Shown piece by piece: positions 13,619-45,653 of a stretch of 64,000 nt of DNA. The stretch spans positions 24,289,489 to 24,353,488 of the forward strand of contig NC_026655.2 of NCBI RefSeq assembly GCF_000004075.3, in the 5' to 3' direction. Under the pieces are notes generated by a model. That model worked only from the letters and a program-made list of their open reading frames with translations. It ran no database searches and was not told where the DNA came from. The stretch's first letter is position 1, and each line of letters starts with the position of its first letter. The position numbers and the translations under genes were made by a program. This DNA comes from Cucumis sativus. Lineage: Eukaryota > Streptophyta > Magnoliopsida > Cucurbitales > Cucurbitaceae.

Positions 13619-15479
13619 TATCAAATGGTCATCCATTACAATTACCCTACTTTTAATGAGTTGAGCCAATGGATTGATGTGAGTATGCCCTAAACGGATC
13701 AGCTCAATTATCAAATTATTGGACTGACAAGTGTAACGTTTTTTTTTTTTTATCGAACTTGGATCAATCTTGGATTGGACTTGAGGCTTGGAACCCGAAT
13801 TCTCAAGTAAGATCTACCAAGAGTAAGACGATCCAATTTTAAAAAGAAAAAAAATACATCAAAATCAACCTCTCAAATCTTTGTAAGGTTTTTGATATAT
13901 TTTGTGTCATTTGAGCTATACTCTCATTTGACAAACACTAAATAAAACTTTATATCATTCATATGTTTATAAAAAAAAGTAATATAAATATAAAATATAA
14001 AATACATTAAATAAAAATAAATTTTAATAATATTTTGTAATGAAAGTAAAAATATACATATATTTTTAAATAATTAAATAACTAATATCTAATGGGATAA
14101 TCAAATAAATCAACCCGAACTTTGATGTAAAGAGTTAGGCCAAGGGTTGGGTCATGGACTATTATTATAGAAGTTGGTTGGGTCGACCTGATCAAATTAA
14201 AGCCCACACTATTCAATGAGTTAATCCAATGGGTTAACCGGAATCCAACCCAAGTTCAACTCGACTTTGATCTAAAGAGTTAGCCTAACAATTGGATCAT
14301 AGACTTGGCTATAAAAGGTAGGGTCAGTCCAATCCAAGCCCAAACAATATCTTAGGCCCTTGAACTTGAGCCTAAGTCAAACCTGTACCTTCACATTTTA
14401 GGTGTTAATCAACTGGATCGGGCGAACCCAATAATGAGAGTGAAGTAATACACAATTAAACGCAAAATATAGATCATACTAGTGAAGTGAAACGAAACAA
14501 AGCCATCACAAGAAAAAAAAAAAAAACAAATTATAACACCCACCGTGACATAATCAAAATGATATATAAAACATACCATATATACACAAATAAGTAATTG
14601 TTTAACAATTAATAAACAATACAAAAAATATTGGTTTTTTTTCTTTTTTTTTGTCGTCACTCATCCCAATTGCTCAACAAAAATAAAAGTCAATACACAA
14701 CTTTTTCACGGGTTGGGTCATATGCTTGGCTTGTGGAAGGTTGGTTGGCTCGATCCAATCCTTCACAATATCCAAGCCCTTTAACTTGAGTCTCAGTCAA
14801 AAACTTCTAATTTCACCGGTTGATTAACTAGTGGTCCGATCAATCTAATAACAAAGGTGGAAGTGATACATAATTAAGCTCAAAACATAAATCAAACTAT
14901 TCATGAAAACCCCTCGAAACAAAAAAAATCACTATAACTAATCAAACAAATTACTCACAAAAGTATGTTGCATATATTTGGATGATATAACACTCGAGTG
15001 ATATACCATATATATATATATATATGTATACCTGTCAATCCACAAATAAGTATAACATTGGAATAATAAATAAAACAAACAAATAAACTTTTAGAGATTT
15101 GCAAATATTTTTTTTTCACTCACCACAATTCCTCAACAAGTAGTTGAGAAAAAGGATCCAATAATAAAGTTAAATAACATAACAATCCATGCAATGCAAA
15201 GCAACCAATTAAAGAGAGGATAATAAAGAAAAATTAAAGAGACTATCAATCAAGCTAAATTTTTCTTTGGCAATATCTTTAAAAGACCAAAATTAGTTGT
15301 GAATTGAAGGAGAAGCTTCTGTCATGGTCAAAGTTCTGGACTTTGCTCGACTCTGTAATCTATTCCATATGGATCTGGGGAGTCCAATATCATTTGTGTT
15401 GCCCAATGATTAGATGGTGAATCAAGATCTGTGAATGAAACGTATTATAATTGTCAAACAAATATTACTATTATTTCAT

Positions 15480-15510
<31 letters not shown>

Positions 15511-16693
15511 CACATCCCTTTTCTAGGAAAAAGAAAGAGAAGAAAACTATATATTTATATTACAAAAACCATTACCTAAGTTTATGTTGTCACAAAACCA
15601 TTGTTGATCAGGAGAGTCTATTCTTGGAAGTTCATTCTGACCTACTTGTGAATCCTGCTTACAATAATTAGCTCTCTCCAAATTAGTACAAATCTGTTTT
15701 ATTTATATATAATATCAACTTAATTAGTCTAACATCATTTGTTTTCAATATAGAAAAAGAGAACATAAAGAGAGGGAAGAACCATAACCTGATCAAAGCT
15801 TTCATTTTGGTAATAATTAGCAACTACCAAATTCTGATCGAAATTAACTTGAACAACGCTTTGATTTTGGTCATTAAGAACTCCCAAACTCTCATTGGCA
15901 TTAGCGAGTTGCTCAGTTCCCACCAAATTATCATTATTGTTCTGTTTTTGGCATATAATATGAATAAAAACAATCTTAAATTTATCAACCGACGAAAAAG
16001 CTTAAGAAGTTGATGGGTGAGGAAGAACTTTCATTTATATGTCATCAAACAATAGCTATAGCGAGAGAAATCACTTATAACCTCAACGATTTGACTTTGG
16101 TGATTATTAACTTGCAGACCAGCTCCCATCAAATTATTATTATTGTGATCCTGTTTATAAATAAGAAAGGCTTAAATGAAGAAGAATTTAATTATATAAA
16201 ACCTAATACTAGAGAGAGAGAGAGTGAGATAGAGTAGTTGAAAAACTTACTGTTTGATCATAATCAGCTGGATCATAACCAACACATGTCTTTGCATGCT
16301 TAACAATGTCATCCCACTCATCTAGCTTGGACATACTCCTTTTAAGAAACTATTGAGCATGTATATATATATATACACACGAAGGTTAATAAAATACTCC
16401 CAATAATTTAAAAGATCAAGATAACTAATTTTGATACATTTAAATGTCTTTTATAAAGGTTGTACTGTTACGTATTACCTCTTCCAAAGTTGGAGAACTC
16501 ATTTCATGATATTTCCACAAGAAAACTCCCACAGTTTCGATGCCTAGTTCTTCTGAAGATAAGATTCTGTGATATACACCATTTTTCCTTACCCCAACTA
16601 ATCGCCATATTTCACATCCCTTAGTTGGGGGGAAATGCTTTTTATTCCCTAATTAGAATTATACAAAATTAAAAAATATATATATATTTTATG

Positions 16694-16698
<5 letters not shown>

Positions 16699-16754
<56 letters not shown>
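16699..16754. repeat. (AT)n microsatellite
   Basis: About 28 uninterrupted AT units lie in the intron between the core and central-domain exons of copy 3. Confidence 0.9.
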
Positions 16755-16757
<3 letters not shown>

Positions 16758-17122
16758 TAATTGGTATATATCATACAAAGAAAGAATTAATTAACATACA
16801 ACTATATACCTTTGGATCGTTTATGCAGAACTCTAAAGGGTCCAGAACAGGCCTCTTCAATCGTACCAATCTTCTCCAAAATCTGTTCATCAATAACTTT
16901 GACTCCCAAAACAAAATCATTAGATTTCCAATATTTGCTGGACTTGACAGCAAGACCTTCGACATAGCCAATTCCATGTTGTAGGCGAAATTGGAGATGA
17001 TCAAAAGAGATCAAGTCCATTGTTTTTTCTCTTGAAATAGGAGTTTCAGACCCTTTTTCTTTGAGGAAGAGTTCGACCATAGCAAAGGATATTGGTTCGT
17101 TGGTGATGACAGTGTTGGAGTA

Positions 17123-17353
17123 TAACAGAAGAAGCAGAATTTGGGAGAAAAGATTTACTGACTGCAGTAAATTCTTTATTTCTGTATGTCTAGGATATTT
17201 ACATCAACCAAGCTTGGTATTTATAGATTCTTGGCAGCAACTGATAACTGTCTAACAGATTAACTAACACAACTAATACAACAGAAAATAACAGATTAAC
17301 TAATACAACTAATACAACAGAAAATAACAGTCTAACTACTTTTATTGTTAATA
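17123..17353 (-). mobile_element. Solo LTR-like insertion in a CBP60 exon
   Basis: The 231-bp insert is bounded by a perfect 5-bp target duplication GAGTA (17118-17122 and 17354-17358), as expected for LTR retroelements. Read on the minus strand it starts TATTAACA and ends TCTGTTA, i.e. non-canonical TA...TA termini. It contains a TATA-like CTATAAATACC, a later AATAAA, and a CT-rich end, the order expected across U3-R-U5. A phrase of about 35 bp (TTATTTTCTGTTGTATTAGT...) is duplicated near its start. No internal retroelement sequence remains. Confidence 0.75.
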
Positions 17354-17689
17354 GAGTAGGCATCACAAATTTCAAATTTCAATACCTGATTATCTGTACT
17401 AGATTTTATCTTATCGCCATGGTACATGGTGTCCATAATTTCATACCAAAAACGTAATTTGTATTTCCTATAATTTTTTATTGGAGAAAGAAAAAAGAGC
17501 AGACAAGATGTTAACATAATGAAGCATAATAGTCAGAATTATATTAAAACTACAATCTCAACGTTTGTCTGTGTCATGCATTAAAAACCTGACCTTGGTG
17601 TTGATGGAAGAGGTTTAAGTTGAGCGTTTGCAATCCCATCAAATTCATTCATTAACTGAAAAGGCAATTATGAATTATTGGATGTATTT

Positions 17690-18640
17690 TTACTGCTTTA
17701 TTCTATGGAGATTTTAAAAAAGTATAACAAAATGTCAAAATATTTACTATGAATTGAACAATTTCAAAAATGAAAAAAGTTCAGAAGTCTACACCAAAAA
17801 TGCTCCAGTCAACATGCGATTAATCGGTCACACATGCACGTATAATTATTCTTCTAAACGATCATAATACACGATTGCGTAAGAAAAATGATACACGATC
17901 ATATAGGGTAGTATCAACACTAACCATACGAGCGCGTGTCATTCTTCTTCTAAATGATCATTTAAATATATTGGTACACGATCGATTAATATAAAATCTA
18001 AAGGATCTTGGTTCACGATCATGTACCAATATCTTTTATATTTGGTACAAGATATTGTACCAATGTCGTTTAAATTTTGTACACAATCGTGTACCAAAAG
18101 CTAAATGATCGTGGATAAAATCTAAATCATTTTGGTTCACGATCATGTACCAAGATCTTTTATATTTGGTACAAGATCATATTGGTAATATAGTTTAGGT
18201 TTTGTACACGATCATGTACTAAGAGTTAAACGATTGTCTATCAAGATCTAAATGATTTTTGTTCAAGATCGTGTACCAATAAGATCTTTTATATATCTTG
18301 GTACACAATCGTTAAGATCTAGAAGAGAAAATATATGAGATCGAGATGATCAAGATTGTTTACCAAGTAGAAATTTGAGAAAGTGAAAAAAAGAAATAAA
18401 TGAAAAATAGACGAAAGAATAAATTCTAGAAGAGAGAATGAAGAAATTACGAACCAGAACAAGTGAAAAATGAAGAAGAGATAAATAAATCCCAAAGAAG
18501 ATGAAAAAGAACGAAAAATATCATGAATTTTTATTTTGTTACACGATTTTGTATATATTTTAATATTTTATTATATTTACGAAAATGAGCCTTATTTGAT
18601 TGCCTAATATAAATAATAATTTTGAGAACATAATTAAATT
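17690..18640. repeat. GATC-rich dispersed repeat in copy 3 intron
   Basis: Between exons 3 and 4 of copy 3 lies a block dominated by variants of GATCGTGTACCAA and its complement (TTGGTACACGATC), about ten times between 17860 and 18320 in mixed orientation. Its left flank ('aatatttactat...aacaatttcaaaaatgaaaaaa' then 'cagtcaacatgcgattaatcg') matches the flank of a second block near 31885-32060, so the two are members of one family. Confidence 0.6.
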
Positions 18641-19859
18641 TAATTAAAATGGTTACGTACTAATTGTCGAAATTCACTTTCCCATTCTGCTCTTTTTTCC
18701 TTAATCAAAGCATCAACTATTTCTTTAGCTCGAGCCTCATCTTCACCACTGCACAACATAAAAAATAAGAGAAGATCGATTACAAATATATATGAAATCT
18801 ATACAGCTTTTAACAAGATATTAAATAATAACGGATCGGAGAAGATAATGCATCCACACATCTCAACTTCACTCATATATTCTTACACTTTCATATCATA
18901 CTTTGAATTTAGTATCGATGCATTCAAACAAATAAAAGCAAAGAGAGCTATGTACAAAGAGGGCTAGAGGCTGGGGAGCCCATTGCCAAAAAACAGAAAA
19001 TAGGCAATATTTTGTGCACCACTCATCATTTGACCTACAAGTATAATTAAGCCTTTTCAACTATTTGTGGTTATAATGGTTCAGTTAGAAATTTGTTTTC
19101 AATCATAAAAATGTTGAAAATGCAAAATTTTACTTTCTATAGATTTTGTTTAACAAGATACTAGAGAAGGAATCCGTAGATGCATCGAAATATCTCTCAA
19201 CTAGGTTGACACTTTCTTAACATTTTTCTCATATTTCAAGACCAACAGAGATGCATGCATTTAAGAACAAGAGTCATTGCAAAAAAGATCTATCTACAAA
19301 AGCAAACTCCTACGGGAAAACAAAAAGTGACTAAAGAACTAAAAGAAAGTCTTTTAGTTTAGTCCAACAACATAGGCATCATAATTTTAAAAAAAAGATT
19401 CTATCCTATTTTTACTTACGATTCGGTCCAAATAGACATTTATCTGTGTCTATTAGCAATCTGCTGATATCTATCTGGATCTATTACAATCGATCAAAAT
19501 AAAATTTATTATTTTTAATTATAAATAAGTTATTGAAAACATTATGAAAATATGGTATTAATTAAAGCACTCACCTTTGAGAGTTATTGATGCTATGTGC
19601 CATCATCCTCTTCAATTCTTTCACCTTTCCAATTATGAAACTCTCATATAATTCTTGAATCAAATCCCTAGCTTTGCTACTTTCATGTGCAGAACTACAG
19701 AAAATAAAATAAAAGATTATTATAAATTATATAAATGAAATCGGATTTTAATTTAAAGAATAAAACAAATCAATGACTCAAGAAAATGAAATTAAATGGA
19801 TAATAAACTTGTTTTAGACTACTGAGATGAAACTTATATATGGAAACTGTCAATTAGCC

Positions 19860-20450
19860 TCAAGAGTCAGAGCGTTAGACAAGGATACGAATAGATCAGT
19901 AGGGCACCCAATCATATTCACAAGGTGAACAACCTTTTTAGCATTCTTATCATCAAATATATATTCATAAAATCACAGAAAAGTACAGGATGATGAAGAG
20001 GACTAGAGAATAAGCCCCAAAGAAACAGAAAAAAGCAGTCAAGTAAAAGCAATAATGTTTAGAGCAATAACACTGGAAGAGTAACTTTTAAAAACAGTGC
20101 AAATATTCTTTCAAATGTTAATAGTGCTGGAAAATCTGTTGTTGAATATTCGGTTGTTTCCCTCCAGCCAAATGGTCCATAGTGTTAAAGCACGCTTAAA
20201 CACGACACTAAAAGGGATGCTTTTATTATCTCTTATCGGGACTTCTCTCTCTGTGGTCCTTTGTGATCATTAGTTTTTGCTAACTCTTGTGTTGATCTAT
20301 AACTCTATACTCAATGAAATGAGAGTGGGATACAACGAGGGTGTTATGGTGTCAAGATAAGATATTCTGGTGTACCTTTACATACTAATCCACGATAAAT
20401 GTCCTTTATTATTATTTTGGGAATCTAACTAAGAGCTCAGCTCATTTGCT
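19860..20450 (-). mobile_element. LINE 3' fragment in copy 3 intron 1
   Basis: On the minus strand one frame reads LTLWTIWLEGNNRIFNN followed by FSSTINI, a stop, and KNICTVF. This is the signature near the end of plant L1-type reverse transcriptases (zf-RVT region). The 3' end has the shared CACCTTGTGAA / 'gggtgccc' / 'cgtatccttg' tail. A homologous fragment sits at the same place in copy 5 (39427-40200), so the insertion predates that duplication. Confidence 0.65.
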
Positions 20451-21126
20451 TAAATGTGCAAATCATGGTAAGAAATTGAGATAATATTTTTCAAAATTGA
20501 AAATCAAACCTAACCATACGAAGATAATTAACGCACCAAGGTAGAACATGAAGCTCAAACTATAAATTATGAAGCTCAAATTATAAATTAACAAAACCCA
20601 AAACAAAACAAAACAAATATTTATGTGTATTAAAAAAGAAAAGAAAAGCAAAGCCCACCCTGCAGTTGGAAGAGGAGATGAGTTTGGACAACGTCTCTTT
20701 GAGCCATCTTGATCAGCTTCTTCCTCTGAAGAGACTGATCTCTTCTTCCTGTTTCCATTTGCGGTGGAGGAGCTGCTCGGATCTGTCATCATATTTTTCG
20801 AGATTTCTATATTGAGTGATGGAGATTATCAACCCTTTCGAATTAGGGTTCTCGTAGCACTCATAGTCGTCATACTCCATAATATTTGAAATAGGAGAGC
20901 CAGTCGAGAGAAAATGGTAATGAGAAACTTCTCAGAAGTCTTTGTGTTTGTGTTCATACTAACTAATGGTGTCCCTTTTTAAGCCATATTGACCACCTCC
21001 TTTTATTTTTCCAGTTCTATTTTTTCTATATTTTTTTAAAGTAAAAAACAGCATTGTTCTAAGCAATCAATTAATAATTAACTATTGGTTTTGTATTTTT
21101 TTAAAACTATTATTATTATTATTATT

Positions 21127-21154
21127 ATTGGGCTTCACATTTATTTAGGAACTC
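21127..21154 (-). promoter_or_regulatory. Conserved upstream block, copy 3
   Basis: Plus strand ATTGGGCTTCACATTTATTT then AGGAACTC, about 335 bp upstream of the copy 3 start. It is nearly identical to the block of copy 5. Confidence 0.5.
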
Positions 21155-22309
21155 GAAGATATAAATTAAACATGAGTTCTTTGTCTTTTTATTTGAAAGA
21201 AAATTGTATATATATTATTGTACTACAATTGCTTTTTCTTTTTTCCTTAAAAGTTGCGTTAATTTTAGAGAATTTAGGAGTTGTTGCCATTTATAAATGG
21301 CAATTAAATTTAGAGAGTTTAGGAGTTGTTGCCATAAATGGCAACTAATAATCCAAAATTAATAGCAAATGCAGTACAAGAGGGTAATTGGATATATATA
21401 TATATATATAGAAATTTTGTTCACTCGTTTTTTAGATTTTGTATTTCTCAATTTTGAAGCTTTCATGGGATAGCTTCTACCAGTGATTATGATATTGACT
21501 TTTATTTTATTAATTGAACCAATAAGTCTCTATTTTTATTCCATTTAAATTTTAAATTCAATCAAATGCCTTTCCCAACCAGTCTCTGTCTTTAGCTTAA
21601 ACGCCTTTCATGATGAAGATCGTAGCAACGTTTTAACAATCGATGTGCAATAAGTTTGACTTAGGCTCGAGCACAAAGATGACTTAAGCCATTTGCTTGA
21701 ATATTTGGATCAAAATTTGGGTCGAGTTTAACCGGTTGGGTTTGGGTCAGCCCACCAGATCATTAAACTCATTAAATATTAATTATTTAAATATTTAAAA
21801 ATGAAGGTATATTTTAGATTTTTTTATGAAATATTATTATAATTTATTAATTTTTATTGCTTTTTGGATAAAACTGTTGATACTGATAGTATATAAAGTT
21901 TTATTGAGCATTTAATTAGATTAAAATGATTTATACACACCAAAAAAAGTTGAATAGAAGTTATGATATATTGAAATGTATTTAAGAGAGAGTTTTAAAA
22001 ATATATTTACTTTGTTAATATTTGAAATATATAATATATGAAAAATTACACATATGCATACATATTTGGTATGGTACAATAACAAGTTCATCCGCTTAAT
22101 TGGTGGCTCATACGACTAGTCAATCTGATTATAAAAATGATTCGATTTTGTTATTTTGTGTGAGTTCTTATAAAAATGGCAATTTGTATCCAACATTGAT
22201 TTTGGATCGAACTTGCAATAGACATAGATCATCCTTTGTGTTTGAGGTCTGTTGATAGAGATTGAATTTCAAGTAAGATCTATTCAAGAATAAGGGTCAT
22301 CTCTAAACT

Positions 22310-22485
22310 TTTTTTTTGTTATAGACTTAGCTTTAGCCCGTGCTGTCGTTTGGCTTGTCCCCTGTATATTAATTCTTCATATATTAATGAAAGCGATAAT
22401 GATGAGGATGCTAAAAAGATGTTCACCTAGTGAAGATGTCTGAATGCACTATTGATCCAACGTATCTTTTAAAAAAAAGAAAAAA
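22310..22485 (+). mobile_element. LINE 3'-end fragment
   Basis: The plus strand carries 'ggcttgtcccctgtatatta', 'aatgaaagcgataatgatga', TTCACCTAGTGAAGATGTCT, 'gtatcttttaaaaaaaagaa'. This tail ends in an A-rich tract like the fragment at 28735-28830. Confidence 0.55.
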
Positions 22486-22966
22486 TGAAAGACAGTAGAA
22501 ACATCTTAATATTTGCGACACAAATAACGAGAGCACCAAAGTAAGATAGTAAAGTTGAAACAGTTGACATAAAAAAATCACTAGAAGAATCAACTTCAAA
22601 ATGTAGCTTCACACACATTTTTCTTTTTTGAAAAAGATAACTTCACTCACATTTAAATATAATACATTAGTAGATTGATATGAGCTAGTAATATACTTTA
22701 ATTTATATTATTGATATATAATCCATAAATTGACACAATTTGAACACTAACACACAATGCAGATCAAAGCAATTTCACATCAAAACCAAATAAACAAACA
22801 AAATTGATTCTGAAACGGAAGCTTTCTCATATTTGGTCTAAGTTTTCTTGGGAGTGTCCAAGTATATCTCACATCATATGGACTTGAAGTTGCTTCTAAT
22901 ATAACCCAAATGGAAATGATCTAGCTGCCAATCAAAAATTTTATAATTATCAAACAAATATTCATA

Positions 22967-23001
<35 letters not shown>

Positions 23002-24522
23002 AAATATGAATTAATTTCATCAATTTTTTTGAACCAATGGGAAGAAAACTATTTATTGCAATACCTTACAATTCTACAGTAATATAGCCAACACCTTTTC
23101 AGCAGACCATTCTTCAAAACAACTGTCACCATATTTCTTTTCCTGCACAAACTTCTAAATTGTTATTACAATGAATTACCTTCTCCTTCACTTTCCACCC
23201 AATTATTTACCTGATATAATATGAACTTAGTATAAGATTATACCAATATATAAACCTTTGACCTCATGAAGATTTTGATTTTGCTGATGAGTTTTAAAAT
23301 TCTGGTTGGAATCATTAGCTTCCACCTCAGCTTCCCCAAAATGATTGGTCTGTTTTTGGCGTATAATTATATATTAACTAAGTTTAGTTCAGGAATAAAT
23401 ATTATAGAGAGAAAGAAAGAAAAATAGAGTAACCTTGACAGACTTTGATTTTGGCCATCATGAACTTCTGAATTAATGTTGGAATTAACTAGTAGTTCAG
23501 TTTCCACCAAATAAAAATGGTCTTAAATTATCAATCGAACTAGAAGTTTAAGTTGATCATGGGTGAAGAAGAATTTTATTAATCATATATCATCAAACAA
23601 CAATGATAAGAGAAATCACTAACCTCAACGCGATTTTGATGATTATGAAATTCTAAATTATGACTAGAATTACCTAGCTGTTGAGTTCTCACCAACTTCT
23701 TATTATTAATTATCTTGCTTTTGACATATAATATGAACATAAAGAGATAATATATCATCAGATTACAGTAGAGAGAGAAAAAAAATCATTAACCTTACCA
23801 CTTTGATTTAAAATCATTAACCTCAACACTTTGATTTTGGGAATTATGAACTTCTAAATTATGATTGGAATTAGCTAGTTGTTCAGTCTCCACCAAATTA
23901 TTTTTATTGTCCTATTCTTGGCATGTAATATGAATAAAAAGAGTTCTAAATCATCACCCATCAACCGACCTAAAAGATTAAGTTTATAGCTGAAGAAGAA
24001 TTTTTTTAATTACATATATCAAAGAAATATAACTAACCTCAACACTTTGATTTTGAGAATTATGAACTTCTGAGTTATGATTGCTATCGGCATGACAATC
24101 ATTAGCCTGTTTTTGGCACAAAACATTAGTACTAAGTTTCAAGTTTCATTTGAATAATAGATCAGATAGAGAAAGAATGTGAAAGAGAGTAGCTGAAATA
24201 AACCTGTAAGATTTGACGATAATGAGTTGGATCATAACCAACACATTGCTTAGCATGCTCAACAATCTTTTTCCACAACTCTATCGACATTTTCTCTCCA
24301 AGAATCTATTCATTTACATATGAAAATTAATATAATCTGCCAAATCATTTAATAAGATGATTACATTGATACCTTTATATTTAAGGGGCCGTCACACACA
24401 CCCATCTTTTTACGAACTATCAAATTGTGTCAAACCACGGTTTTCCATATCATAATTTTTTTCTTTTAATTTCTGAGTAGGCTGTAAAGTGCAAATCTAC
24501 GTTAAGTTAATTGAAACTAATG

Positions 24523-24524
<2 letters not shown>

Positions 24525-24564
<40 letters not shown>
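24525..24564 (-). repeat. 40-nt poly(T) tract beside a splice donor
   Basis: An uninterrupted run of 40 T (poly-A on the gene strand) starts 11 bp inside the intron that follows the copy 4 central-domain exon. The homologous copy 5 intron lacks it. Confidence 0.9.
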
Positions 24565-24565
<1 letters not shown>

Positions 24566-24969
24566 TAAAGGTTACCTTTTTCAAAGCTTGAGAGCCCATT
24601 TCGTGATATCTCCTCAAGAAATCTCCCACATTTGTTATGCCTTGATCTTCCGATAAGATTCTGTGATATACACCTCTTTTGCTGATCCCAACTAGCCACC
24701 ATACTTCACTTTCCTTAGTTGGGGGGTTATGCTTTTTCAACCCTAAATAATTATATATGTATTAGAAAAATTATTCTATAATAATATATTTTCTTTTTAG
24801 GGAAGAAACTGAAAGATAAAAAGCATGAATAGATGTATAGGACATACCCATTCTTAACATTCTCATCGTATTTCAAGGCTATGTCTAAAAAGTTGATGAG
24901 AATACAAGCAAAAACCTAAGAAGATAGCTAGAGAAAAGCTCCCCAATTAAGGGCATGCAATAGTTGGCA

Positions 24970-26870: not shown

Positions 26871-27741
26871 GGTAATAACCATACCTTTCATTCGTTTAGT
26901 CTTAACTGTAAAAGGTTCAGAAATGGCATCTTCAATGGTGGCACCAGTCTTCATTAAAATCTGTTCATCCACAACTTTGACTACTAAAAAAAACTTCTTA
27001 GATATCCAATACGAATGGGGATTGACAATAAGATCTTTGACATAGCCAATTCCATTTTCTAGGCGATGTTGTTGGAGAACATTGAAAGACATCAACTCAA
27101 TTAGTTTATCGGCTGAAACAAGAGTTGGAAGTGTTTTAGAATCATTTTGTTGTTGGAAGAGGAAGAACTGGACCGGAGCAGACAATAATAAACCGGTAGG
27201 GATGATAGTGTTGTGGTAGGCATCACAAATTTCAAATTTCAATGGCTCCTCATCTATAGCCTTTATCTTATCCTTGTGGTACATGACGTTGGCAATTTTA
27301 TTGCAGAAACGTAATCTGAGTTTCCATGTTCCACTTCCAGGTCCTCCCTCATGTTGATTGCTATTTATATATTGTTAAATCATAAACAGGAAAAAACCAG
27401 CACAAGATGTTATGCGAAAACATATAAATAATGAAAAACACATTACTTGAAGAGCTAAAGTCCAAATTAATGAAATTTTATTTATGTTGAGTTGATGTTG
27501 GGTGTACTTTTATTTGAAATTAATTAGGTATATTGAATTAAGATGGTGGGTTTGGTGTGCATATTTATATTTGGTTGTGAAAAGAAAAGATAGTTGTTGG
27601 AAAATATTTAATAATAAGGGAAGGGTTGATCTGATGGAAGAGATAAAATTAAATGAAGAGAGAGTTGATTAAAGTATATATTAATATATATATATATTTT
27701 TTAGCAAGTAGGGTTTAAAGTTGTGCTAACTAAAAGAAATG

Positions 27742-31783: not shown

Positions 31784-31884
31784 ATAATTGTTATAGATAT
31801 TGTTTTTGCTATGCCATATTATGAAACAATGTCTATGTGTTTATTATAATAATTTTCTCAATATATCTTAAAGGAGTTTTTTTA

Positions 31885-33739: not shown

Positions 33740-34500
33740 TGATATATTGAGGTGTATTTAAAAGTTTTACCCACTTTATTTGGAGTGTTCCAAATAGAAT
33801 TCAAAGCAAGTTCACATCCTCTCCAAACTTTGTCATAGCTTATATTCACTCCATGTTGTGTTTTCATATAATTAATAACATTCAAAGAACGACATGCAAT
33901 CTTGCATTCATCTTTAAAAATGACTTTGTACACATTCAGAAGCAATCCAAGATATTACTGACTCTTGAGCATCTTTCACAATGTTAACAACACATAGGTG
34001 GATACTTGTGAATTTACGAACTAATCAAATATCACCTTTTTTAATACCAAAGCACGCAAATACCAAGCACATGACAAATCGTTAAACCAGATATCAAATG
34101 AGGTACGATTCAATCTAATTGTACTAAGTTCAAAACTATTATTAACAACAAACAAATAACATTTTTCAATACAAATTTGCTTCTAAACATTGACCTTACT
34201 TTAATAGAAATTTCAGCCCGAGACAATTCAAACGCTTTAAAGTCAATAATTCTCATATCATAATGTGAATATTGAAATCTGGATAGTTCACTATTAAAAT
34301 AAGTTGTACTTCCAGTGGTACCCGTCTATTCAAAGTCATTAACCACGAATAAATCATTATCGAGAAATTTCGATAAAACTAACAAAAGCAAAGAAACATC
34401 CTTATTCTCAACAATCTAAATGAGGTTTTGTTGCAACTGTCCTAGTAAACCATTAAGCAATACCTTAATAGACTACAAGACGGAAAAAGTTTACCGTGAA
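33740..34500 (-). mobile_element. MULE-type transposase remnant
   Basis: The minus-strand frame at 33945-33750 reads ECKIACRSLNVINYMKTQHG then VNISYDKVWRGCELAL. This resembles the N-terminal zinc-binding and 'Y-x-K-A-W-R-G' region of plant Mutator-like transposases. Further upstream frames (34150-34400) are broken by stops, and no catalytic DDE region or termini were found. It is a remnant with no intact ORF. Confidence 0.45.
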
Positions 34501-35046
34501 TACATTCAATCAATTTGTTGAAACGAATATGTAAATAGTACATAAACCGCTCAGACATGATAATCATGATATATATTGAAAAGTTCAATCCATCTACCAT
34601 AAAAAACCAGTTCATCCTCGTTGTAAAGCCATAGAAAAATTGTATTGGTTAAAATTCTAGTATCGTCTTCCAACAAATAATTGGGTGATAAAGATAATTA
34701 ATAACATAATTCATGCAATATTCAACCAAAGGATGGAATAATAGCAAACAATTCCAAAAAAACTATATCAATCAAACATTTTTTCTAATAGAAAAAGGGC
34801 TAAAATTGACTGTGAAAGAGAAGCTTTTTCTTAATATGGTCCAAGTTCTTGAGGGTGTTCAAAGTATAACACTCATCTCATATGGAGTTGAAGAAGCTGC
34901 TTCTAATATAGCCCAAATGGAAATGATGACAGAAGAACTCTGTCAATGAAAGATTTTATAATTATCAAACAAATATTCATATATATATATATTTCGTCGG
35001 TTTTTTTTGGGAACCAATTGAGAAGAAAACTATTTATTGCAATACC

Positions 35047-38000
35047 TTAAGATTCTAGTAGAACCGACACTTTTTCAAAACACCATTCTTCATATTTCTT
35101 TTCCTGCATAAAAACTTTCAAATTGTGGTTAGAATTAGCTTCCCCTTCATTTTCCACGCAATAATTTGTCTGTTTTATTCATATAATATCAACTTAGTAT
35201 AAGATCCTTCCAATATATAAAGAAAGAAAGAAGGCATAAAGAGCTCGAGGAACCATTGAAAACCTCATGAAGGTTTTGGTTTTGCTGATGAATTGGAATA
35301 ATTATAGAGAGAAAGAGAAAGAGGAAGTAACCTTGACATCTTGATTTTGGTCATTATGAACTTCTGAATTATGATTGGAATTAGGTAGTTGTTGTTCAGT
35401 CCCCACCGAATTATTATTATTATTGTCCTGCTTTTGGCATATAATATGAATAAAAAGAGTCATAATTCATCAACGACCTAAAAGCTTAAATTTATGAATG
35501 AAGAAGAATTTTATTAATTACCTGTATATCATCAAACAAGAGAGAGAAAGAAATAACTAACCTCAACGCTTTGATTTTGAGGATTATGAACTTCTGAGTT
35601 ATGATTGGTATCAGCACGATGATCATCAGCCTGTTTTTGGCATCAAAGCATTAGTACTAAGTTTCAAGTTTCATTTGAATAGAGATAGAGAGAAAGAATG
35701 TGAGAGAGAGCAGCTGAATAAACCTGTAAGGTTGGAAGATAATGAGTTGGATCATAACCCTCACATTGCTTAGCATGCCCAACAATCTTTTCCCACATCT
35801 CCTTTGACATTTTGTCTCCAAGACTCTATGCATTTACATATGAAAATTAGTAAAAATCTGCCAAATCATTTAATAAAGATAGATTACTTTGATGCTCCGT
35901 TACAGCCATCTTTTTCTACAATCTTTTCAAATTGTGTCAAAACCATGGTTTCCTTACAAGAGAGTGAGGCTATTTCGACCCTCTTTTATCAGAGGCTATA
36001 AAAAATCATCAAAAAAGGTATACATTCATCGAACGTTTAGAAAAAACTTTTGAGAAATATATACTTTTAATCTGAAGAGTTACAAAAATCTTTCCTGCCA
36101 GAAGTGGAATCAGATAGATTTATGAAGTTATAATTTCAGAAAATAGAGTAAGCTGCAACTTTGAATTAAGAGTTTGTTCATGGCTTCTCTCTATAGTATT
36201 TGAACCATTCTTTTGTTCAACTGAGACGTGTCTGTGTTGCTGTGATCCATCATCATTGAAACTGCAGTTTTTCTTCAATTGAGTAATCTACAGAAAATAG
36301 AACAATCTGTCGCTTTTCTACAATTGAGTTAACATCATTGAAACTGATCCATCATCTTCAACTGATGTGTCTGCGTTGCTGTTTGTAGCTGAGTTTGTGT
36401 TTTGTAGTTAGAAGTTAAATAGTATGCTTCTCAAGTGATCGATGGTACTCTTGACAAATACATTTGTACAAGTATTTGGACCAGAAAAACATGGACGTGT
36501 TTGTGGTTACGGGGTAGGTGTTACCCCATTTGAGTTGTTTGGATCATTGTCTAAGGTACACGATCTTGAGCGTCGCCTTAATGATCATCGTCTGATATTA
36601 TAGAATATTTTGAGATTGTAATTTTGATGTCGTAGATTGTCATTCTTATACATTGTAATTCAACATTTCACCATTAGGTAGATGGATTAGTAAAAACAAC
36701 ATTTTGAGATTTGTCGATAAATGTGTTAAAATGTTTTGTGAGAGAATTTTCGAAGGATTTATACATTGGTTGAAAAAGTTCTTTTATGAAAACCTTAGAT
36801 GAATAGTTTAATGTTATCGAGATGAATAGTTTAATGTTATCGAAGGTACGCGTGACTTTTGAAAATTATTAGTAAAACTTTCGAGAATTACTAATTTTCA
36901 AATGTTAGTAAATCTTTGAAAAAAAAATTCGACAGAATCTATTTTGACACATTATTAAATGCTTTTTCGAAGTTTCTAACCTTCGAAAATTGCCAATTTT
37001 TTTTTTGTAGGGTTTTCCATGTCATAATTTTCCAAAAAAAGTTCTGACTAGGCTGTAAAAAGGTAGGTGCAAATCTAAAGTTAAAAGATAATTGGTAAAG
37101 ATTACCTCTTTCAAAGCTTGAGAACCCATTTCATGATATTTCTTCAAGAAATCTCCCACAGTTGTTATGCCTTGTGGCAATAAGATTCTGTGATATACAC
37201 CTCCTTTGCTGATCCCAATTAGCCGCCATACTTCACTTTGCTTAGTTGGGGGGTTATGCTTTGCAAACCCTAATTAGAATTATACAAATCTTTTTTAGCA
37301 AAGAAAATGTAGGATAAAAAGGATGAATAGATGCACCCACATATTTATGATAATACAAGCAAGATCCTAAGAAGAGAGCTAGAGCTAGAGGAAACCTCCC
37401 CAATTCAGGGCATGCATGCAATAGTTGGTATATATATATATATATATATATTATCAGAAAAGAGGAATGTAGTAACTATACCTTTCATTCGATTAGTCTT
37501 AACTGTAAAAGGTTCGGAAGTGGCATCTTCAATCGTAGCACCGGTCTCCATTAAAATCTGTTCATCCATAACTTTGACTACCAAATAAAACTTCTTAGAT
37601 ATCCAATATGAACTGGGCTTGATAATAAGATTTTTGATAGACCCAACTCCATTTTCTAGGCGACATACTTGGATAGCCTTAAAAGACATCAACTCTCTTA
37701 GTTTATCGGCTGGAACAAAATCTGGAGATCTTTTAGAATCATTTTCTTCTTCGAAGAGGAAGATCTGGAACGGAGCAGACGATAATAGACCGGTATCGAT
37801 GATAGTGTTGTAGTAGGCATCACGAATTTCAAGTCTCAATGGATTGTCATCTATACCTTTTATCTCATCCTTGGGGTACATGATGCTGGCAATTTGATTG
37901 CAAAAATGTAATCTGAGTTTCCATGTTCCACTTCCAGATCCTCTCTCATATTGATAGCTATTTATACATTGTTGAATCATAAATGTTTGTGAGAAAACAC

Positions 38001-40589
38001 ACAAAAATTAAAAAACAAGCACAAGATGTTATATTTGTGAAAACATATAAATAATCATTTCTCGAGAATTCTAACTATTCTAGTTATTCTTAGTCCCGAT
38101 TAGAACTCTATAGAATTCTGTAATGTTAAAAAACTGACCTTAGTGGGTTTGGTGGAGGAGGTTTAAGTTGAAGCTGTGCAATCCTATCTAATTCCTTCAT
38201 TACCTGAAAAAGGCATTTATAAATTAATCAAATTATTTGAATTATGTATTTTTTTATTTTATTTTATTCCACAAGTAATGTTGAGAGAATATAATTAAAA
38301 TGGTAATACGTACTGTTTCACGAAATTCATTTTCCCATTCTGGCAGTTTTTCTTTAATCAAACCATCACGTAGGACTTCTCTTTCTCTTTCTCTACCTTC
38401 GGTTTCATCTCCACAACTATAGAAAAAAAAATATCTCTCACTTAGCACTCTCTCATCATACCCTTAATCAGTTTTTGATGCAATTCAAACGAAAGGATAA
38501 AAGCAAAGAGAGTTATGTACAAAGAGAGCTAGGAGGAGAAAATTAAAGCAATTCAGTTTAAAGCAGTAGATGAAGCATCGTAATTACAAAATTTGGGTGG
38601 ACAAGTGGTAATTTGACCTACAAGCATATTATATTTGAGCTTTATCAACAATAATATTTGTGGTTTTAATGAAAGAAAAATAAATAATGGGAAGTTGTTT
38701 TAAACAACAAAACAGTTTAAATTACAAATTTTAACTTTCAAGCTATAGTTTTTTGTTTAACCTAAGATACTAGACGAAGGAATGAGAAGACACATTAGAA
38801 CATTGATACCTCCTTGGCTTATGATTTTGCTCAAATAGACATTTGTCAGTAAATAGATGTTCATCTGAGTCGAGTCTATTGCAATCAACACGAATAGAAA
38901 ATAAAATTTATTAATATTATTTACAAATAGTTAAATTAGAAATGACCTTGGAGAGTTAATGCTATGTGAGATCCTCTTCTCAATTTCATATTCCAATTCT
39001 CGAAGTTTGTCAGTCATGAAATTCCATCGTAATTGTTCAATCAAAGCCCCAGCTTGAGTAGTATCATGTCCAGACCTACATAAAATAAAATCAGACCATG
39101 ATATTAAAAAGAGTATATTCTTAGTGAGAAATTGATCAAATTCAATGGAAATGGATAAACTTCTTAGTGAGATGGAACCATATATATGTAATCTAAAAAG
39201 TCTCACGAGTCTAAACCATTTCTTTTTTTCTTTTTTACGTCAAGAGATCAATAAACGCACCTCAACATCACAAGTCAGAGCATTTCAAGAAGTACAACTC
39301 ATCATTTACTATTTTCTTTCTAAATCTAGTTGCTTTTATCTATCTTATGAAACAAACTACTAGAGCTAGAGAAGGAATGAAAGCAATAATGAGATATCTC
39401 AATTAGGTTAATCTATTCTAAGCACACACTTTTATTTAAAAGGATACGATTTGGGTTAGTAGGTATATTGTATCCAAACATCCTCACCTAGGTGAATACT
39501 CTTTTAGCACACGCATCATCCCTTATCAAGTATATTCATTTCATTGAAACACAAGGTACGTACAAGATGATAAGTAAAAAAGGGCTAGAGATAAGTCCAA
39601 TGAAGGAAAAGAATACAGTCAAGGAAAAGAACTACAGTTTAGAGTAATGACAGTGGAGAATAATTAGAAAAACTCTTGTTGGATGATCAAGATCCTGTGA
39701 GGCTGCAAATATTCTCCCAAATGTTGACAGTGCTAACAAATTTGTTACTGAACATTTTGTTGTTTCTCTTCGGCCAACCACATTGTCCATAAAGTGGCCA
39801 CACCCATATTGAAATATATAATCCTTTTTGGTTTTTTTGTATTGATTGAGCAGAGAGGTTTTCACTCTAGCTTCGACAGCTTTGACTATTGTTTTACAGG
39901 CCTATAGAAATTCTAAGCACAGACTTAAACACACCTTACCCTAAAAGCAATGCTTTTATGTAACATTTATTATCCTTTTTGCCTCTTATGATAGGGCTTC
40001 TCTCCTTAGCCCTTTGCCATTAGTTTTCGTTAGCTCTTGTGGTCATCTATGACTCGACACATACTTATTGTTTTATGATCAATGAAATGAGACTACGATA
40101 CGATGGAGGTGTTATGGTGTCACTCTAAGAAAAGATATTCTAGTGTATCGTACACATACTAATCCACGACTATGCATGTATTATCTTAAAAAAGATTATT
40201 TTTTTGAAAAAAATTGACCAAGAACTCAACTCATTTACATAAGAAAATGTGCAAATTCATGATAAGAAACCGAGAAAAAATCGATATAATTTTAAAAAAC
40301 TAAAGATACACCACAAAATAGTTATCAAAATTGAAAATTCAATCAAGCACACCAAGGTGTATAACATGAAGCTCAAATTATAAATTAAGAAACCAAAACA
40401 AAACACAACAAAAACTATTACAAGTGAGCAAGTGTATTAAAAGAAAGAAAGAAAGAAAAGCAAAGCCCACCCAGTTGGAAGAGGAGATGAGCTGCAACTT
40501 CGTCTCTTTAACCCATTTTCTTCAACCAGCTCTACACCTTCACTAGCAGCGCCTCGCTTTTTCATGTTAAAGCTGCTCGAATCGGCCAT
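35047..40589 (-). CDS. CBP60-like protein, copy 5 (apparently intact)
   Basis: Ten exons with consistent phase: 40589-40471, 39075-38947, 38416-38314, 38203-38139, 37957-37482, 37269-37106, 35825-35724, 35630-35562, 35427-35332 and 35169-35047 (stop), about 481 aa. The N-terminus is short and basic (MADSSSFNMKKRG). The core exon has WKLRLHFCNQIASIMYPKDE, LRLEIRDAYYNTIIDTGLLS, ENGVGSIKNL and YWISKKFYLVVKVMDEQI. The central domain is SEVWRLIGISKGGVYHRIL with GITTVGDFLKKYHEMG, followed by MSKEMWEKIVGHAKQC. The usual CBP60 C-terminal domain is absent. In its place are two phase-0 exons (69 and 96 nt) encoding ADDHRADTNHNSEVHN and DNNNNNSVGTEQQLPNSNHN, and a short acidic end. Intron 1 contains a LINE fragment and the intron before exon 7 a ~1.06-kb insertion. 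By family it is a nuclear DNA-binding regulator; whether it binds calmodulin is unknown. Confidence 0.78.
35954..37010. mobile_element. ~1.06-kb insertion in a copy 5 intron
   Basis: Copies 4 and 5 align up to 'gtgtcaaa-ccatggttt-cc' and again from 'ggttttccat-tcataatttt'. The 1057 bp between them exist only in copy 5. The flanks GGTTTCC (35947-35953) and GGTTTTCC (37011-37018) look like a roughly 8-bp target duplication. The ends (TTACAA... and ...TTGTAG) are weakly inverted, and internal TTTCGAA / TTCGAAAA motifs recur. A hAT- or Mutator-size DNA transposon derivative is likely. Confidence 0.5.
36798..36843. repeat. 23-bp tandem duplication
   Basis: Two consecutive copies of GATGAATAGTTTAATGTTAT(CGA) lie inside the intron insertion of copy 5. 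Confidence 0.8.
39427..40200 (-). mobile_element. LINE 3' fragment in copy 5 intron 1
   Basis: Minus-strand frames around 39830-39640 read LWTMWLAEEKQQ and, after a frame change, STVNIWENICSLTGS: the zf-RVT end of a plant LINE. The CACCTAGGTGAGGATGT box and 'aaatcgtatcctttt' tail lie at 39440-39500. It occupies the same intron position as 19860-20450 in copy 3. Confidence 0.65.
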
Positions 40590-40903
40590 CGTCAAATTTT
40601 TCGAGATTTCGAGTTTGAGCGATGGAAGACGATTATCAACCGTTTTGAATTAGGGTTTAGGTAGCAGTACTCATAGTCATAGTCCATAACGTAGAATAAG
40701 AGAGTTGAGAAAAATGAGAGAAACTTCTGGGCTAGGATAACTAAACACATGTGTTCATGTCCCTTTCCAATATGAACTGTTTATTGCCCTCCTCCTTTTT
40801 TTCCACTTTTATTTTTCTATTTTTCTAAGTAAAAAACAACATTATTAATTCTAAGCACTCAATTAACTATTGATTTTGTATTTTTTAAACTATTATTATT
40901 ATC

Positions 40904-40931
40904 ATTGGACTTCACATTTATTTAGGAACTC
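40904..40931 (-). promoter_or_regulatory. Conserved upstream block, copy 5
   Basis: Plus strand ATTGGACTTCACATTTATTT then AGGAACTC, about 315 bp upstream of the copy 5 start. The equivalent segment (about 100 bp) is deleted upstream of copy 6, where the flanking phrases are joined near 45940-45960. Confidence 0.5.
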
Positions 40932-41319
40932 GAAAATATAAATTTCTCCAAATCCTAAATTACTTTTTATCAATCCAAGATGGAAAGTAAAATTGCTCGC
41001 AAGCATATGTTTAGTTAATGATAAATTAAACATGAGTGTTCCACAATTGCTTTTTTTTTCTTAAAAGATGTGTTGAATTTAGAAAATTTAGGAGATGTTG
41101 CATTTATAATTAATTAAATAATACAAAATTAATAGTATATGAAGTATATAAGAGGGAAAATTAGAATTATACCATAAAAATAAGCCTAGATATTGAAAAA
41201 AAAAAAAAAAAACAAAAAACTCCAATGGTGGTTTTCTTGTATATGTATTTCTCAATTTTGAAAGCTATCATTAATCATTTCTATTAATACTAAACTATCA
41301 TTGTTTAGCTTTTATCAAA

Positions 41320-41469
41320 TGGAATCAATAGGGTCATTTTTGTCCATGCAACATGAAAAACGTGGGCCAAGAAAAAAATGACGGTGTTTCGGCCACGCAA
41401 CAAAAAAAACGTGGGTAGTAGCTCTACCAACATTTTTCTGCGTCGACAAAGACGAAAATTCTTGTAGTG
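41320..41469 (-). mobile_element. CACTA-like terminal fragment
   Basis: On the minus strand the segment starts CACTACAAGAATTTTCGTC, the classic plant CACTA (En/Spm) terminal motif. Behind it are repeated CCCACGTTTTT / 'acgtggg' subterminal motifs. No partner terminus or transposase was found. Confidence 0.5.
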
Positions 41470-42289
41470 ATAAAATCTAATACTTTTCATCCGATCATGT
41501 TATATAGTTAGTTGATTTTATAGAGTCTTCCTTTTTTTTTTCGTGAATCCAAATGAGTATTATACTGAGAAGAAATTAGGGTTCATGGGTGAAATCATTT
41601 TGTCTATCCGCGTCAACAGAACTATTTCAAGCAAATTAAGAATGATTGTAAAGGACGCGAGGAGGATTAACAAAAGTCGAAAGTATAGAAAACGTAAAAT
41701 ATTACTAGAAGAGGGTTAGGAACAAAAGTGGAAAGTATAGAAAACCTAAAATGAATATTTTACGTGTAGAAAAACCAAAATGAATAATAGACAAAAGTAC
41801 GAGAACTAAAGCAGTATTTAAATCTAAATTTTTAGTTGTTGCATGATATATACAACTAATGGAAAGTATACCAAGTGATGACTTCAAATTAAAAAATTTC
41901 TATTAAAACTAAAAGAATTAGAAGAGTTTTACAAATTAATATAGAAAATTAGTAATTATCTCTCTCTTTTTAACACCAAGTCTATTTTCTATCAATTTTC
42001 TACTAAATGATTTGATTTTTTCTTAATTACTATAGCAGAGTTGAATTCTTAAGCAGTTAGAAAAACAAGTTCTTACAATCTACAAAACAATCTAGCTAGT
42101 AATGGTTTTTAGTTTTTAGTTTTTCAAAATATGTGTTTTGTCTAGTATAGTCTGATTAAAAAATATTGAACCTTAATCAGATGATTGACGAAGGGGTGAT
42201 CTTTACCTACAACACCTTAATCTGCTGATTGATGAGATACATGATTAAGGGAGAGATTTCTATTTATGTTATCTTTGAAATATATTAGT

Positions 42290-42440
42290 GATTGATTTAC
42301 TAGCAATAAAGTTATATCACTCAAGTAGTTATAATTATTGTACAGAATTTTACAAATTTTGCTATATTTGCAAATTTTTTAAAATGTTGTTATATACTTA
42401 ATTATTTTAAATCTAATTGTTAAATTTGTAACTATCACTT
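42290..42440. repeat. Half of a fold-back MITE
   Basis: Only the right arm of the family is present: TTTTGCTATATTTGCAAATT...AATGTTGTTATATACTTAAT. Confidence 0.5.
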
Positions 42441-42707
42441 CCAAAAAAAGAACATGAGTCAATAACTAGAATGCTACAACTTTTATTTCAATAATAGCAA
42501 AATAAATTAAAATATTTACAAATTATAACATAATTTTGGATTGTTTCATTTTTTTATAGAATTTAACAATTTTATTATAGGTAGTAAATAATTTATAAAA
42601 TTTGCTATTTTTTAAAATTCTCATATAAAAAAATACAGTACAATACCCCTATATGCATAGAATGCTAGCTACGTTTAGAGCTAAAAAAAACATAGTTACA
42701 CTTTTTT

Positions 42708-42793
42708 GAACTAAAGAAAGTTTAATGAATTTTGCTATATTTTGTAAATAGAACTAAAGAAAGTTTAATGAATTTTGCTATATTTTGTAAATA
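42708..42793. repeat. Exact 43-bp tandem duplication
   Basis: Two identical units (42708-42750, 42751-42793) start with GAACTAAAGAAAGTTTAATG. Confidence 0.9.
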
Positions 42794-43336
42794 GTTTCAA
42801 TATTTTACTGTTTTTTTAAACATTCCTCTAAAGTGCATGATATACATTTTCTCGATACATAAATGTAAATAAAAATTGAAAATAAAGCCAAAAATAAAAT
42901 AAGCAAATTTTGCAAATATCCTTACTTTGTTTTCCTCTCAACCCACTACAATTTTCCAACAAATAATTGGGTGATAAAGATAAATAACACAATTCATCCA
43001 ATATTCAACCGAACTATGGGATAATAGAAGACAATTCAACAAAAAAAAAAAAAAAAGAACTATATCAATCAAACATTTTTCCAATAGAAAAATGGCAATA
43101 AGGGCTAAAACTTCATGTATGGTCCAAGTTCTTGAGAGTGTTTGAGTATAGCACTCATCTCATATGGAGTTGAAGCTGCTTCTAATGTAACCCAAATTAT
43201 AATAATCAAGAAGAGCTTTAACTGTCAATAAAAAAATTTAGAATTATCAAACAAATATTCATATTATATATATCATTTTTATTTTTTTTGGAACCAATAA
43301 CGAGAAGAAAACTATTTATTGCAATTCCTTAAAATT

Positions 43337-45653
43337 CTACCATATTTCAGCCAAGACTTCATCAAGAGACCATTCTTCAGAACAACTGTCACCATATTGC
43401 TTTTCCTGCATAAACTTCCAAAATCGTTGTTAGAATTAGCTTCCCCTTGATCACTTTCCTCACAACAATTTATCTGTTTTATTCATATAATATCAACTTA
43501 GTATAAGATCATTTCAATATATAAACAAAGAAGACATAAAGAGAGATCGAGGAACCATTAACCTCATGAAGGTTTTGACTTTGCTGAGGAACTTCAAAAT
43601 TCTGGTAGGAACCATTAGCTTCCACCTCACCATCCTCAAAATGATTGGTCTGTTAATTTTGACATTATAATTATAAATTAACCGAGTTTAATTCATGAAT
43701 AATTATAGAGAGAAAGAAAGAGGAAGTAACCTCTACATTTTGATTTTGGTCAACGTAAACTTCACAATTATGATTGGAATTAGCTAGTTGTTCAATCCCC
43801 ACGAAATTATTATTATCGTCCTGTGTTTGTGGCATATAATATGAATAAGATGGATCTTCACTCTTAAATTATCAACAGAACCAAAAGCTTAAGTTGAACA
43901 TCGATGAAGAAGAATTTTACTTATCATATATCATCAAACAACTGTGATAGAGAAATCACTAACCTCAACGCTTTGAAATTGGTGATTATGAACTTCTAAA
44001 TTATGATTAGAATTAGCTAGCTGTTGAGTTCCCGCCAAGTTATTATTATCGTCCTGTTTTTTGGCATATAATATGAATAGAAAGAGTCATAATTTATATC
44101 AACCGACCCAAAAGCTAAAGTTGACAGATAAAGTAGAATCTTTTAATTGTATATATATCATCAAACTACAATAAAGAAATAGATCATTAACCTCAACGCT
44201 TTGGTTTTGGTAATTATGAACTTCAGAATGAGCTAGTTGTTCAGTCGTCACGAAATTATCAAATTCTCTCTTTAAGTTATCTTTGACATGAGTTAAATCT
44301 TTCTTTATAACTCCCTACTAATAGCAGATCTAGATCATCAACACAGAGTAGTAAGTAAACATTTTTCTTATAGGATGATGACTTGACATAGACACAAATG
44401 TCATAGGAACTTCATGTCATTAAAAAACTGACCTTACTGTTTGTGGAACAGATTGAAGACTCTGTACAAGCTCATTTAGGTTCTTATTTAGGTCCTTGAT
44501 AACCTGAAAAAGCAACTTGAATTATTGAGATGTATTTTTATTTTACTTTTAGCACAAAACTGTGAAAACATAACCTATATATCTACACATGTATATCATT
44601 AATTGAACGAAAGTTGTGATTTGCATTATTACACAAGATTTTCTCCATAAAAATCTCAAGTCTTAGTTTTCTTTCTTCTTTGTTTCCTATTTAATTTTGT
44701 TCCTACCATTTTAATAAAATTCTATTTTACCCTTCTAGCTAGATATGGGTTGAGTGTAGAGTATAGGTCTTCATTGAAATGAAAGTCTAATAGGTGCATA
44801 AATTGATATCAACGACATACTACTTTTCAAGATGGACAGTCATGATATTATTCAAATATTTATGTTTGTTGAATTCAACCAACAATCACTAGATATCATC
44901 GAATTATGCTACATATTCAGATAGAGAGCTACAAAAATGACTTCTTGGAAAAACCTTATAAACCGACTCTAAAATGTATTCTTACTTGTTGGAGAGGCTT
45001 TTTTCCCAATGTTGGCTCTTTATTAACAACGATACCTTTGAGTGAATCTCCAAATATTCCAACCACACTCTGAAGTAGATTTATTTCAGGTCCATAGCTA
45101 AAAAATAAAATAAAATATTGTTGAGAAAATGATGCTACTGTACAATGAGAAACACACAAAGAACAACACAACCTGTATAGATAAAATATTGACCTTTGTA
45201 ATGGTGGAAGAGAGTCAAGGCGGATAGTCTGCGTCCAGGAAAAACAAAACAGCTCATGTTATTGTAGGTCTTGACATCCTCTTACTGTTATTCTAGATTA
45301 AAATATAGAACTTTACTTCCTCTTGGGGATTTTCAGGTCCAAATTCTATCGTCAAAGTAGCTTTGAAAGACCTAGGGGTAAGAAACCCAGAACTGGAAAA
45401 ACAAACTAAATATTATTAAGGGAAAAAACACCCACATTTCATAGCAGAATTCAAAGCTTAATAATAACGACAACCAATATAAACAGGAAGTAAAGAAAGC
45501 TAATTAATTAGCCCACCCTGTTGGTAGATGATCAGATGAGTTTGGACAACTTCTCTTTGAGCCTTCAGCTTCAACCTCTTGAGCTTCTTCCTCTGAAGAG
45601 ACTGGTCTCTTCTTGGTGTTTTCGTTTCCGGTGGAGGAGCTGCTCGGATCCAT
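43337..45653 (-). pseudogene. CBP60-like locus, copy 6, core domain lost
   Basis: Five 5' exons are intact and in phase: 45653-45517 (MDPSSSSTGNENTKKRPVSS), 45392-45317, 45228-45194, 45097-44986 (YGPEINLLQSVVGIFGDSLK) and 44503-44433 (VIKDLNKNLNELVQSLQS). The core, the central domain and the AKTC-type exon that follow in copies 3-5 are absent. In their place lies a copia RT scrap (about 44265-44420). Immediately after it come the N/Q-rich tail exons: the end of one (to 44192, TTEQLAHSEVHN), then 44053-43964 (90 nt), 43820-43731 (90 nt) and 43649-43563 (87 nt), all multiples of three. A final piece (EKQYGDSCSEEWSLDEVLAE) is offset by a 1-nt indel before the stop at 43337. A transcript joining head and tail would encode a protein with no CBP60 domain. 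It is called a pseudogene on loss of the defining domain. Confidence 0.7.
44265..44420 (-). mobile_element. Copia reverse-transcriptase fragment
   Basis: The minus strand reads YDICVYVKSSSYKKNVYLLL then CVDDLDLLL and, after a frame change and stop, LKREFD. This spans the copia RT active-site region (usual YVDD, here CVDD). It is fused directly to CBP60 tail sequence (DNFVTTEQLA), which places it at the deletion breakpoint of copy 6. Confidence 0.65.

Follow-up and report, generated by a model that had tools for sequence, protein, structure and literature searches.

Tandem duplication of symmetric phase-0 exons is a known route by which proteins become longer: an exon is copied together with an intron, the reading frame is kept, and the number of copies varies. 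Here we describe a candidate for such a process in a cluster of CBP60-type genes of cucumber (Cucumis sativus). The window, which is the whole stretch of 64,000 nucleotides that was analysed (NC_026655.2, positions 24,289,489 to 24,353,488), contains four gene copies, numbered 3 to 6, in which runs of short exons, hereafter mini-exons, encode an Asn-rich tail. CBP60 is a plant-specific family of transcription factors; its members CBP60g and SARD1 are reported to act jointly in immunity, both salicylic-acid and systemic, and the activation domain of CBP60g to be the binding target of a fungal effector (PMC13354941). For the CBP60 family of upland cotton, genes of 7-8 exons and an absence of tandem duplication have been reported (PMC11049924). 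A melon paper only lists a CBP60 A-like gene (PMC9125322). Among the titles listed from the open-access literature, some deal with condensates and CBP60g/SARD1, and none with the mini-exon tail or a CBP60 cluster in cucurbits.

On balance we favour the view that an exon module has been duplicated in a fast-changing and partly decaying branch of the cluster. The starting point would have been a tandem CBP60-type cluster without the canonical C domain. In the lineage of copies 3-6, the cluster's own exon following exon 7 would have become short and symmetric, and would then have multiplied together with its flanking intron, giving a phase-0 run of variable number. As such exons are symmetric, units can be gained or lost without damage to the frame. 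If spliced in, they would provide a flexible, acidic, Asn-rich tail, most likely tolerated as filler behind a putative DNA-binding core, in the C-terminal part of the protein, where CBP60g has its activation domain. The core would be under diversifying selection, like a gene in pathogen conflict; as an effector binds the activation domain of CBP60g, such conflict is a natural candidate driver.

Mini-exon modules at the end of a two-domain cluster

Domain searches covered a genome of 226.6 Mb in 88 contigs, the window being located on contig C1. PF07887 (Calmodulin_bind) has at least 31 match places genome-wide, and 13 of these lie at C1:24.11-24.33 Mb, so that the window forms the terminal part of a tandem cluster. 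A genome-wide search for PF20452, the canonical C domain, gave four matches in three genes, all of them outside the cluster; the copy 5 protein has no match to it at E <= 10 either. As PF20452 has no match there, the cluster's members are, by domain content, CBP60-related two-domain genes; DNA binding, a nuclear location and, in some members, calmodulin binding are traits of the CBP60 family that they may share. The mini-exon-bearing genes are all on the minus strand. PF07887 scores 52.8 bits in copy 4, 50.9 in copy 5 and 25.9 in the second half of copy 3 (cut-off 25.5), and PF20451 (Calmod_bind_M) scores 32.9 in copy 4 and 24.7 in copy 3 (cut-off 24.5). The spliced copy 5 protein matches PF20451 at 67.9 bits and PF07887 at 47.7 bits, with no other match at E <= 10, and solved structures gave no match to its exon-5 protein at E <= 1.

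The mini-exons were located by tblastn in the window with a composite unit peptide, which matched 10 places at E values from 5e-6 to 5e-15 and one more at 1e-3. All matches are on the minus strand and cluster in four places (15.8-16.2, 23.4-24.1, 35.3-35.6 and 43.7-44.3 kb), and outside the tails nothing in the window matches better than at an E value of 0.013. We delimited 13 units of 69-153 nt, four of them 69, two 87 and four 90 nt long, the remaining three measuring 89, 96 and 153 nt. None contains a stop, and 12 of the 13 lengths are divisible by three. GT is present at the end of all 13 and AG at the phase-0 start of 11, counts that are descriptive and no independent test, since exon ends were placed by eye at AG/GT sites. 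The sole unit of frame-breaking length is also one of the two that lack an acceptor. An earlier sequence-only reading of the window, which had listed lengths of 69, 87, 90, 96 and 153 nt, agrees with this inventory save for the additional 89-nt unit; its statement that nearly all units are multiples of three in phase 0 holds for 12 of 13 lengths, and breaks down at 23434-23522 (no AG, off-length) and at 44192-44260 (no AG). The mini-exons are real as sequence and may be spliced into mRNA.

Relatives of the unit were also sought outside the window. Against the other 189 kb of the cluster, a profile made from 13 peptides of the window (12 mini-exon units plus the copy 5 terminal exon) gave nothing better than an E value of 5.4. 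Genome-wide, a single unit gave 8 matches as protein and 9 as 231-bp DNA (itself included), none of them beyond the window among the best candidates scored, a scope that could overlook rarer relatives. We reject the idea that the unit is a mobile or widespread repeat, given its confinement to the window among the scored candidates. The module is absent from the output of Tandem Repeats Finder.

Introns were duplicated along with the exons. The 231-bp module recurs at 8 other places in the window with 73-84% identity, and successive unit starts are 168 to 293 bp apart. Exon identity exceeds 0.7 in 57 of 78 unit pairs, and in these the 60-bp upstream flanks are 57-97% identical; flank identity reaches that of the exon in 19 of the 57 pairs for the upstream 60 bp and in 22 of 57 for the downstream 60 bp. 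The units have equal phase at both ends and a duplicated flanking intron, as expected of symmetric exon duplication, and their count differs between copies (two in copies 3 and 5, five in copy 4 and four in copy 6), as had been proposed.

A clue to the origin of the tail comes from copy 1, which the copy 4 tail matches in blastn at 3523-3315 with an E value of 2e-10. This minus-strand segment (3315-3523) comprises exon 7, its intron and 7 nt of the following exon, whose start is at 3321, and is homologous to exon 7, the intron and the start of mini-exon A in copy 4. Both copies have the acceptor context TGCC(T/A)AAAACAG, with phase 0 at the matching place. The first mini-exon therefore stands at the place of the exon that follows exon 7 in copy 1, and its body may descend from that type of exon. 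The earlier claim that the tail replaces the CBP60 C-terminus is not supported: as PF20452 is missing cluster-wide, the mini-exons are not its direct replacement, and they occupy instead the place of copy 1's short exon after exon 7.

Tests of selection on core and tail

Codon maximum likelihood (ML) was run on four groups in all, omega being the best grid point. For the core exons of copies 3, 4 and 5 (190 codons), the best grid omega is 2.0, with twice the log-likelihood difference (2dlnL) at 8.6 against omega 1. In 100 simulations under omega 1 the statistic never reached this value, its maximum being 8.1, and a strict 142-codon core subset still gave 5.9. Three other cluster triplets, aligned over exon 5 only, have best grid omegas of 0.7, 1.0 and 0.35, the last with a 2dlnL of 11.6 against omega 1. 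In a pairwise comparison of copies 4 and 5, the ratio of nonsynonymous to synonymous change (Ka/Ks) across exons 5-7 is 1.32, where neutral simulation has a mean of 0.78 (P 0.019), and the absence of stops that these exons show is seen in 0.9% of neutral simulations. The core of copies 3-5 seems to have changed unusually fast.

For the tail, pairwise Ka/Ks is 0.53 for type-B units (pooled over 28 non-independent pairs), 0.62 for type A (copies 4-5) and 2.26 for type C (copies 4-6). These values have to be read against the means that the estimator gives under neutral simulation, 0.78-1.03 with the core pairs and 0.74-1.70 with the control pairs. The eight type-B units are stop-free in 1.6% of neutral simulations, a fraction of 0.04 without the dead unit, which weakly supports a coding tail that has no visible constraint. 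Judged by these alignments, the mark of diversifying selection is in the core and not in the tail.

Intact and damaged copies, and what they allow

Copy 5 is the only complete model, with 10 exons, 1446 nt and 481 amino acids; its nine introns are all GT-AG and of consistent phase. Exon 1 carries the start codon (40471-40589, minus strand like all the following; GT donor, phase fits) and is followed by exon 2 (38947-39075; AG/GT, phase fits), exon 3 (38314-38416) and exon 4 (38139-38203; 65 nt), the last two taken from the gene model. Gene model and domain match agree for exon 5 with PF07887 (37482-37957), exon 6 with the first part of PF20451 (37106-37269) and exon 7 with the end of PF20451 and a phase 0 donor (35724-35825). 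Two mini-exons come next, exon 8 of type A (35562-35630; 69 nt) and exon 9 of type B (35332-35427; 96 nt), both phase 0-0, and then the terminal exon 10 of the gene model with the stop (35047-35169). Every junction from exon 6/7 on is in phase 0.

Copy 3 has mini-exons of 69 nt (16082-16150) and 153 nt (15789-15941) on the minus strand, and its domain exon, exon 5, is interrupted by a 231-bp insertion (17123-17353, unstranded) resembling a long terminal repeat (LTR). GAGTA stands on each side of it, at 17118-17122 and 17354-17358. A 222-bp piece of the insertion has 43 match places including itself, five of the others being 100% identical over the full length, and several matches form genomic pairs with a spacing of about 4.6 kb. 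We read it as a probable recent solo LTR, with caution since it lacks the customary TG...CA ends.

Copy 4 has an exon 4 of 57 nt, versus 65 nt in copy 5, and continuing from it into exon 5 (26885-27360, minus strand; PF07887) meets stops; exon 5 is out of frame as modelled, and an alternative splice site might spare the gene this break. Its minus-strand units are mini-exons A (24038-24106; 69 nt, AG/GT, phase 0), B1 (23822-23911; 90 nt) and B2 (23624-23713; 90 nt, acceptor ..GCAAG), the 89-nt relic B3 (23434-23522), which has no AG acceptor and whose length is not divisible by three, and mini-exon C (23263-23349; 87 nt). Copy 6, also on the minus strand, has unit B0 (44192-44260; 69 nt, no AG at its start) and mini-exons B1 (43964-44053; 90 nt), B2 (43731-43820; 90 nt) and C (43563-43649; 87 nt). 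The last was not found by the profile (E 2.0), and was retained because it is 87% identical to the copy 4 unit at 23263-23349. Domain profile searches matched neither PF07887 nor PF20451 in copy 6, and exons 5-7 were not found upstream of 44192-44260, where alignment scores are at background only. The sequence-only reading had placed the runs after the central domain in copies 3-6; this does not apply to copy 6, and copies 3 and 4 are, respectively, interrupted and frame-broken as modelled.

Several observations count against the view that we favour. Three of the four mini-exon copies (3, 4 and 6) are damaged, the units were chosen partly for being open, and most mini-exon acceptors (..CCAAAAACAG) are A-rich, not U-rich. 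Upstream-flank identity is below exon identity in 38 of the 57 close pairs. As for copy 1, the blastn match covers just 7 nt of the next exon, which may be either the penultimate or the last of that gene, and mini-exon A taken alone scores 46.5 against it in copy 5, barely above the shuffled maximum of 45 (200 shuffles), and 43 in copy 4, with a shuffled maximum of 48 (200 shuffles). Alignments of the copy 4 and copy 5 terminal exons score no better than shuffles. The body of the mini-exon is therefore linked to copy 1 by place and not by sequence.

Selection adds to these objections. In type-B units, the first, second and third codon positions carry 28, 27 and 31 parsimony changes, or 0.93-1.03 per site, the flanks having 1.37-1.53 per site, a figure inflated by gappy alignments. 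The type-B ML optimum, omega 0.7, is within 0.03 log units of omega 1, and the curve is flat from 0.7 to 1.0. With even codon positions and an omega indistinguishable from 1, selection gives no sign of translation of the tail. The idea that the tail is under clear purifying selection is rejected on three grounds, the estimator's neutral means, the even codon positions and the flat ML curve. In the core, the three pairwise comparisons that remain have P values of 0.058, 0.073 and 0.163, leaving one of four below 0.05.

Much of this would suit a tandem array in simple decay, with copies 3-6 as pseudogenes or nearly so, the mini-exons as neutrally drifting relics, and copy 5 open only by recency. 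A copy 3 with an insertion in its domain exon, a copy 4 whose frame breaks as modelled, the lack of exons 5-7 in copy 6, a type-B omega no different from 1 and a unit both off-length and without acceptor all fit. We nevertheless consider it possible but unlikely, given a copy 5 that is open across 1446 nt with nine GT-AG introns out of nine, exons 5-7 that are stop-free in both copies 4 and 5 (the 0.9% of neutral simulations given above), and a core omega near 2 rather than 1.

The mini-exons could also be cryptic or skipped, the protein ending in some other way, for instance by joining exon 7 to the terminal exon, which is in frame too. Since the copy 5 junctions are in phase 0 from exon 6/7 on, any subset of mini-exons can be skipped, and A-rich acceptors would favour this. 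We find it rather doubtful in view of module ends that have AG in 11 and GT in 13 of 13 cases, and of the lack of stops in all 13.

A bolder extension of exon-module duplication concerns immunity. Copies 3-6 could belong to a lineage-specific branch of immune transcription factors without C domain, with a core diversifying gene-wide and a tail reshuffled where effectors bind CBP60g, acting as a decoy or escape regulator; this we regard as improbable.

The composition of the tail bears on a last reading. In copy 5 it has 95 amino acids, with 19 Asn and 7 Gln, or 27% Asn plus Gln versus 7% in the rest of the protein, which agrees with the N/Q-rich translation first noted; its net charge is -12 over the 95 residues, 5 of which are aromatic. 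A rule of thumb for prion-like domains is at least 30 Asn/Gln in 80 residues. The peak is 26 for copy 5, 28 for copies 4 and 6 and 31 for copy 3, the counts for copies 3, 4 and 6 presuming the assumed splicing; only the interrupted copy 3 passes, and the suggestion of a condensate-like tail is not supported for the others. By composition, the tail is acidic and Asn-rich, with no clear prion-like domain. A selected prion-like or condensate-forming tail that alters transcription factor assembly, which the Asn and Gln content and the repeated unit of variable number might suggest, is very improbable in the light of the copy 5 maximum of 26, its charge, its five aromatics and the lack of detectable purifying selection on the units.

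The surroundings include further CBP60-like material. Copy 2 (10479-12568) seems by eye to be a degenerate CBP60 relic whose domain-like pieces lie in more than one frame, and profile searches found in it no PF07887 match and no mini-exon unit. Partial, near-equal PF07887 matches (about positions 87-147) make up a second array, with four members on C5:9356000-9399000 and seven on C78:63000-259000, and PF20451 matches adjoin them. Beside the cluster, plus-strand open frames at 53604-57416 and 58044-59846 resemble an F-box/LRR gene and a pectinesterase gene.

Comparison with known systems

If correct, the combination of a core changing faster than neutral and a tail extended by exon duplication would allow a direct test for pathogen-driven change in a transcription factor, as opposed to a receptor. 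Q/N-rich prion-like proteins resemble the tail in their Asn runs and low complexity, and differ from it in that the intact copy is below 30 in 80, acidic and poor in aromatics. Copy 5 carries PF07887 and PF20451 in the same order as the CBP60 family (Arabidopsis CBP60a-g and SARD1), but the cluster departs from that family by the lack of a PF20452 match, by its duplicated mini-exon tail and by 13 PF07887 matches in tandem. Its tandem arrangement and its 10-exon copy 5 also set it apart from upland cotton CBP60 as reported (PMC11049924). In comparison with proteins lengthened by symmetric exon duplication, the differences are a low-complexity, acidic, Asn-rich unit, an immune-type transcription factor as host, a majority of damaged copies and a splicing that is putative; the likeness lies in an exon and intron duplicated together, a preserved frame and a variable count.

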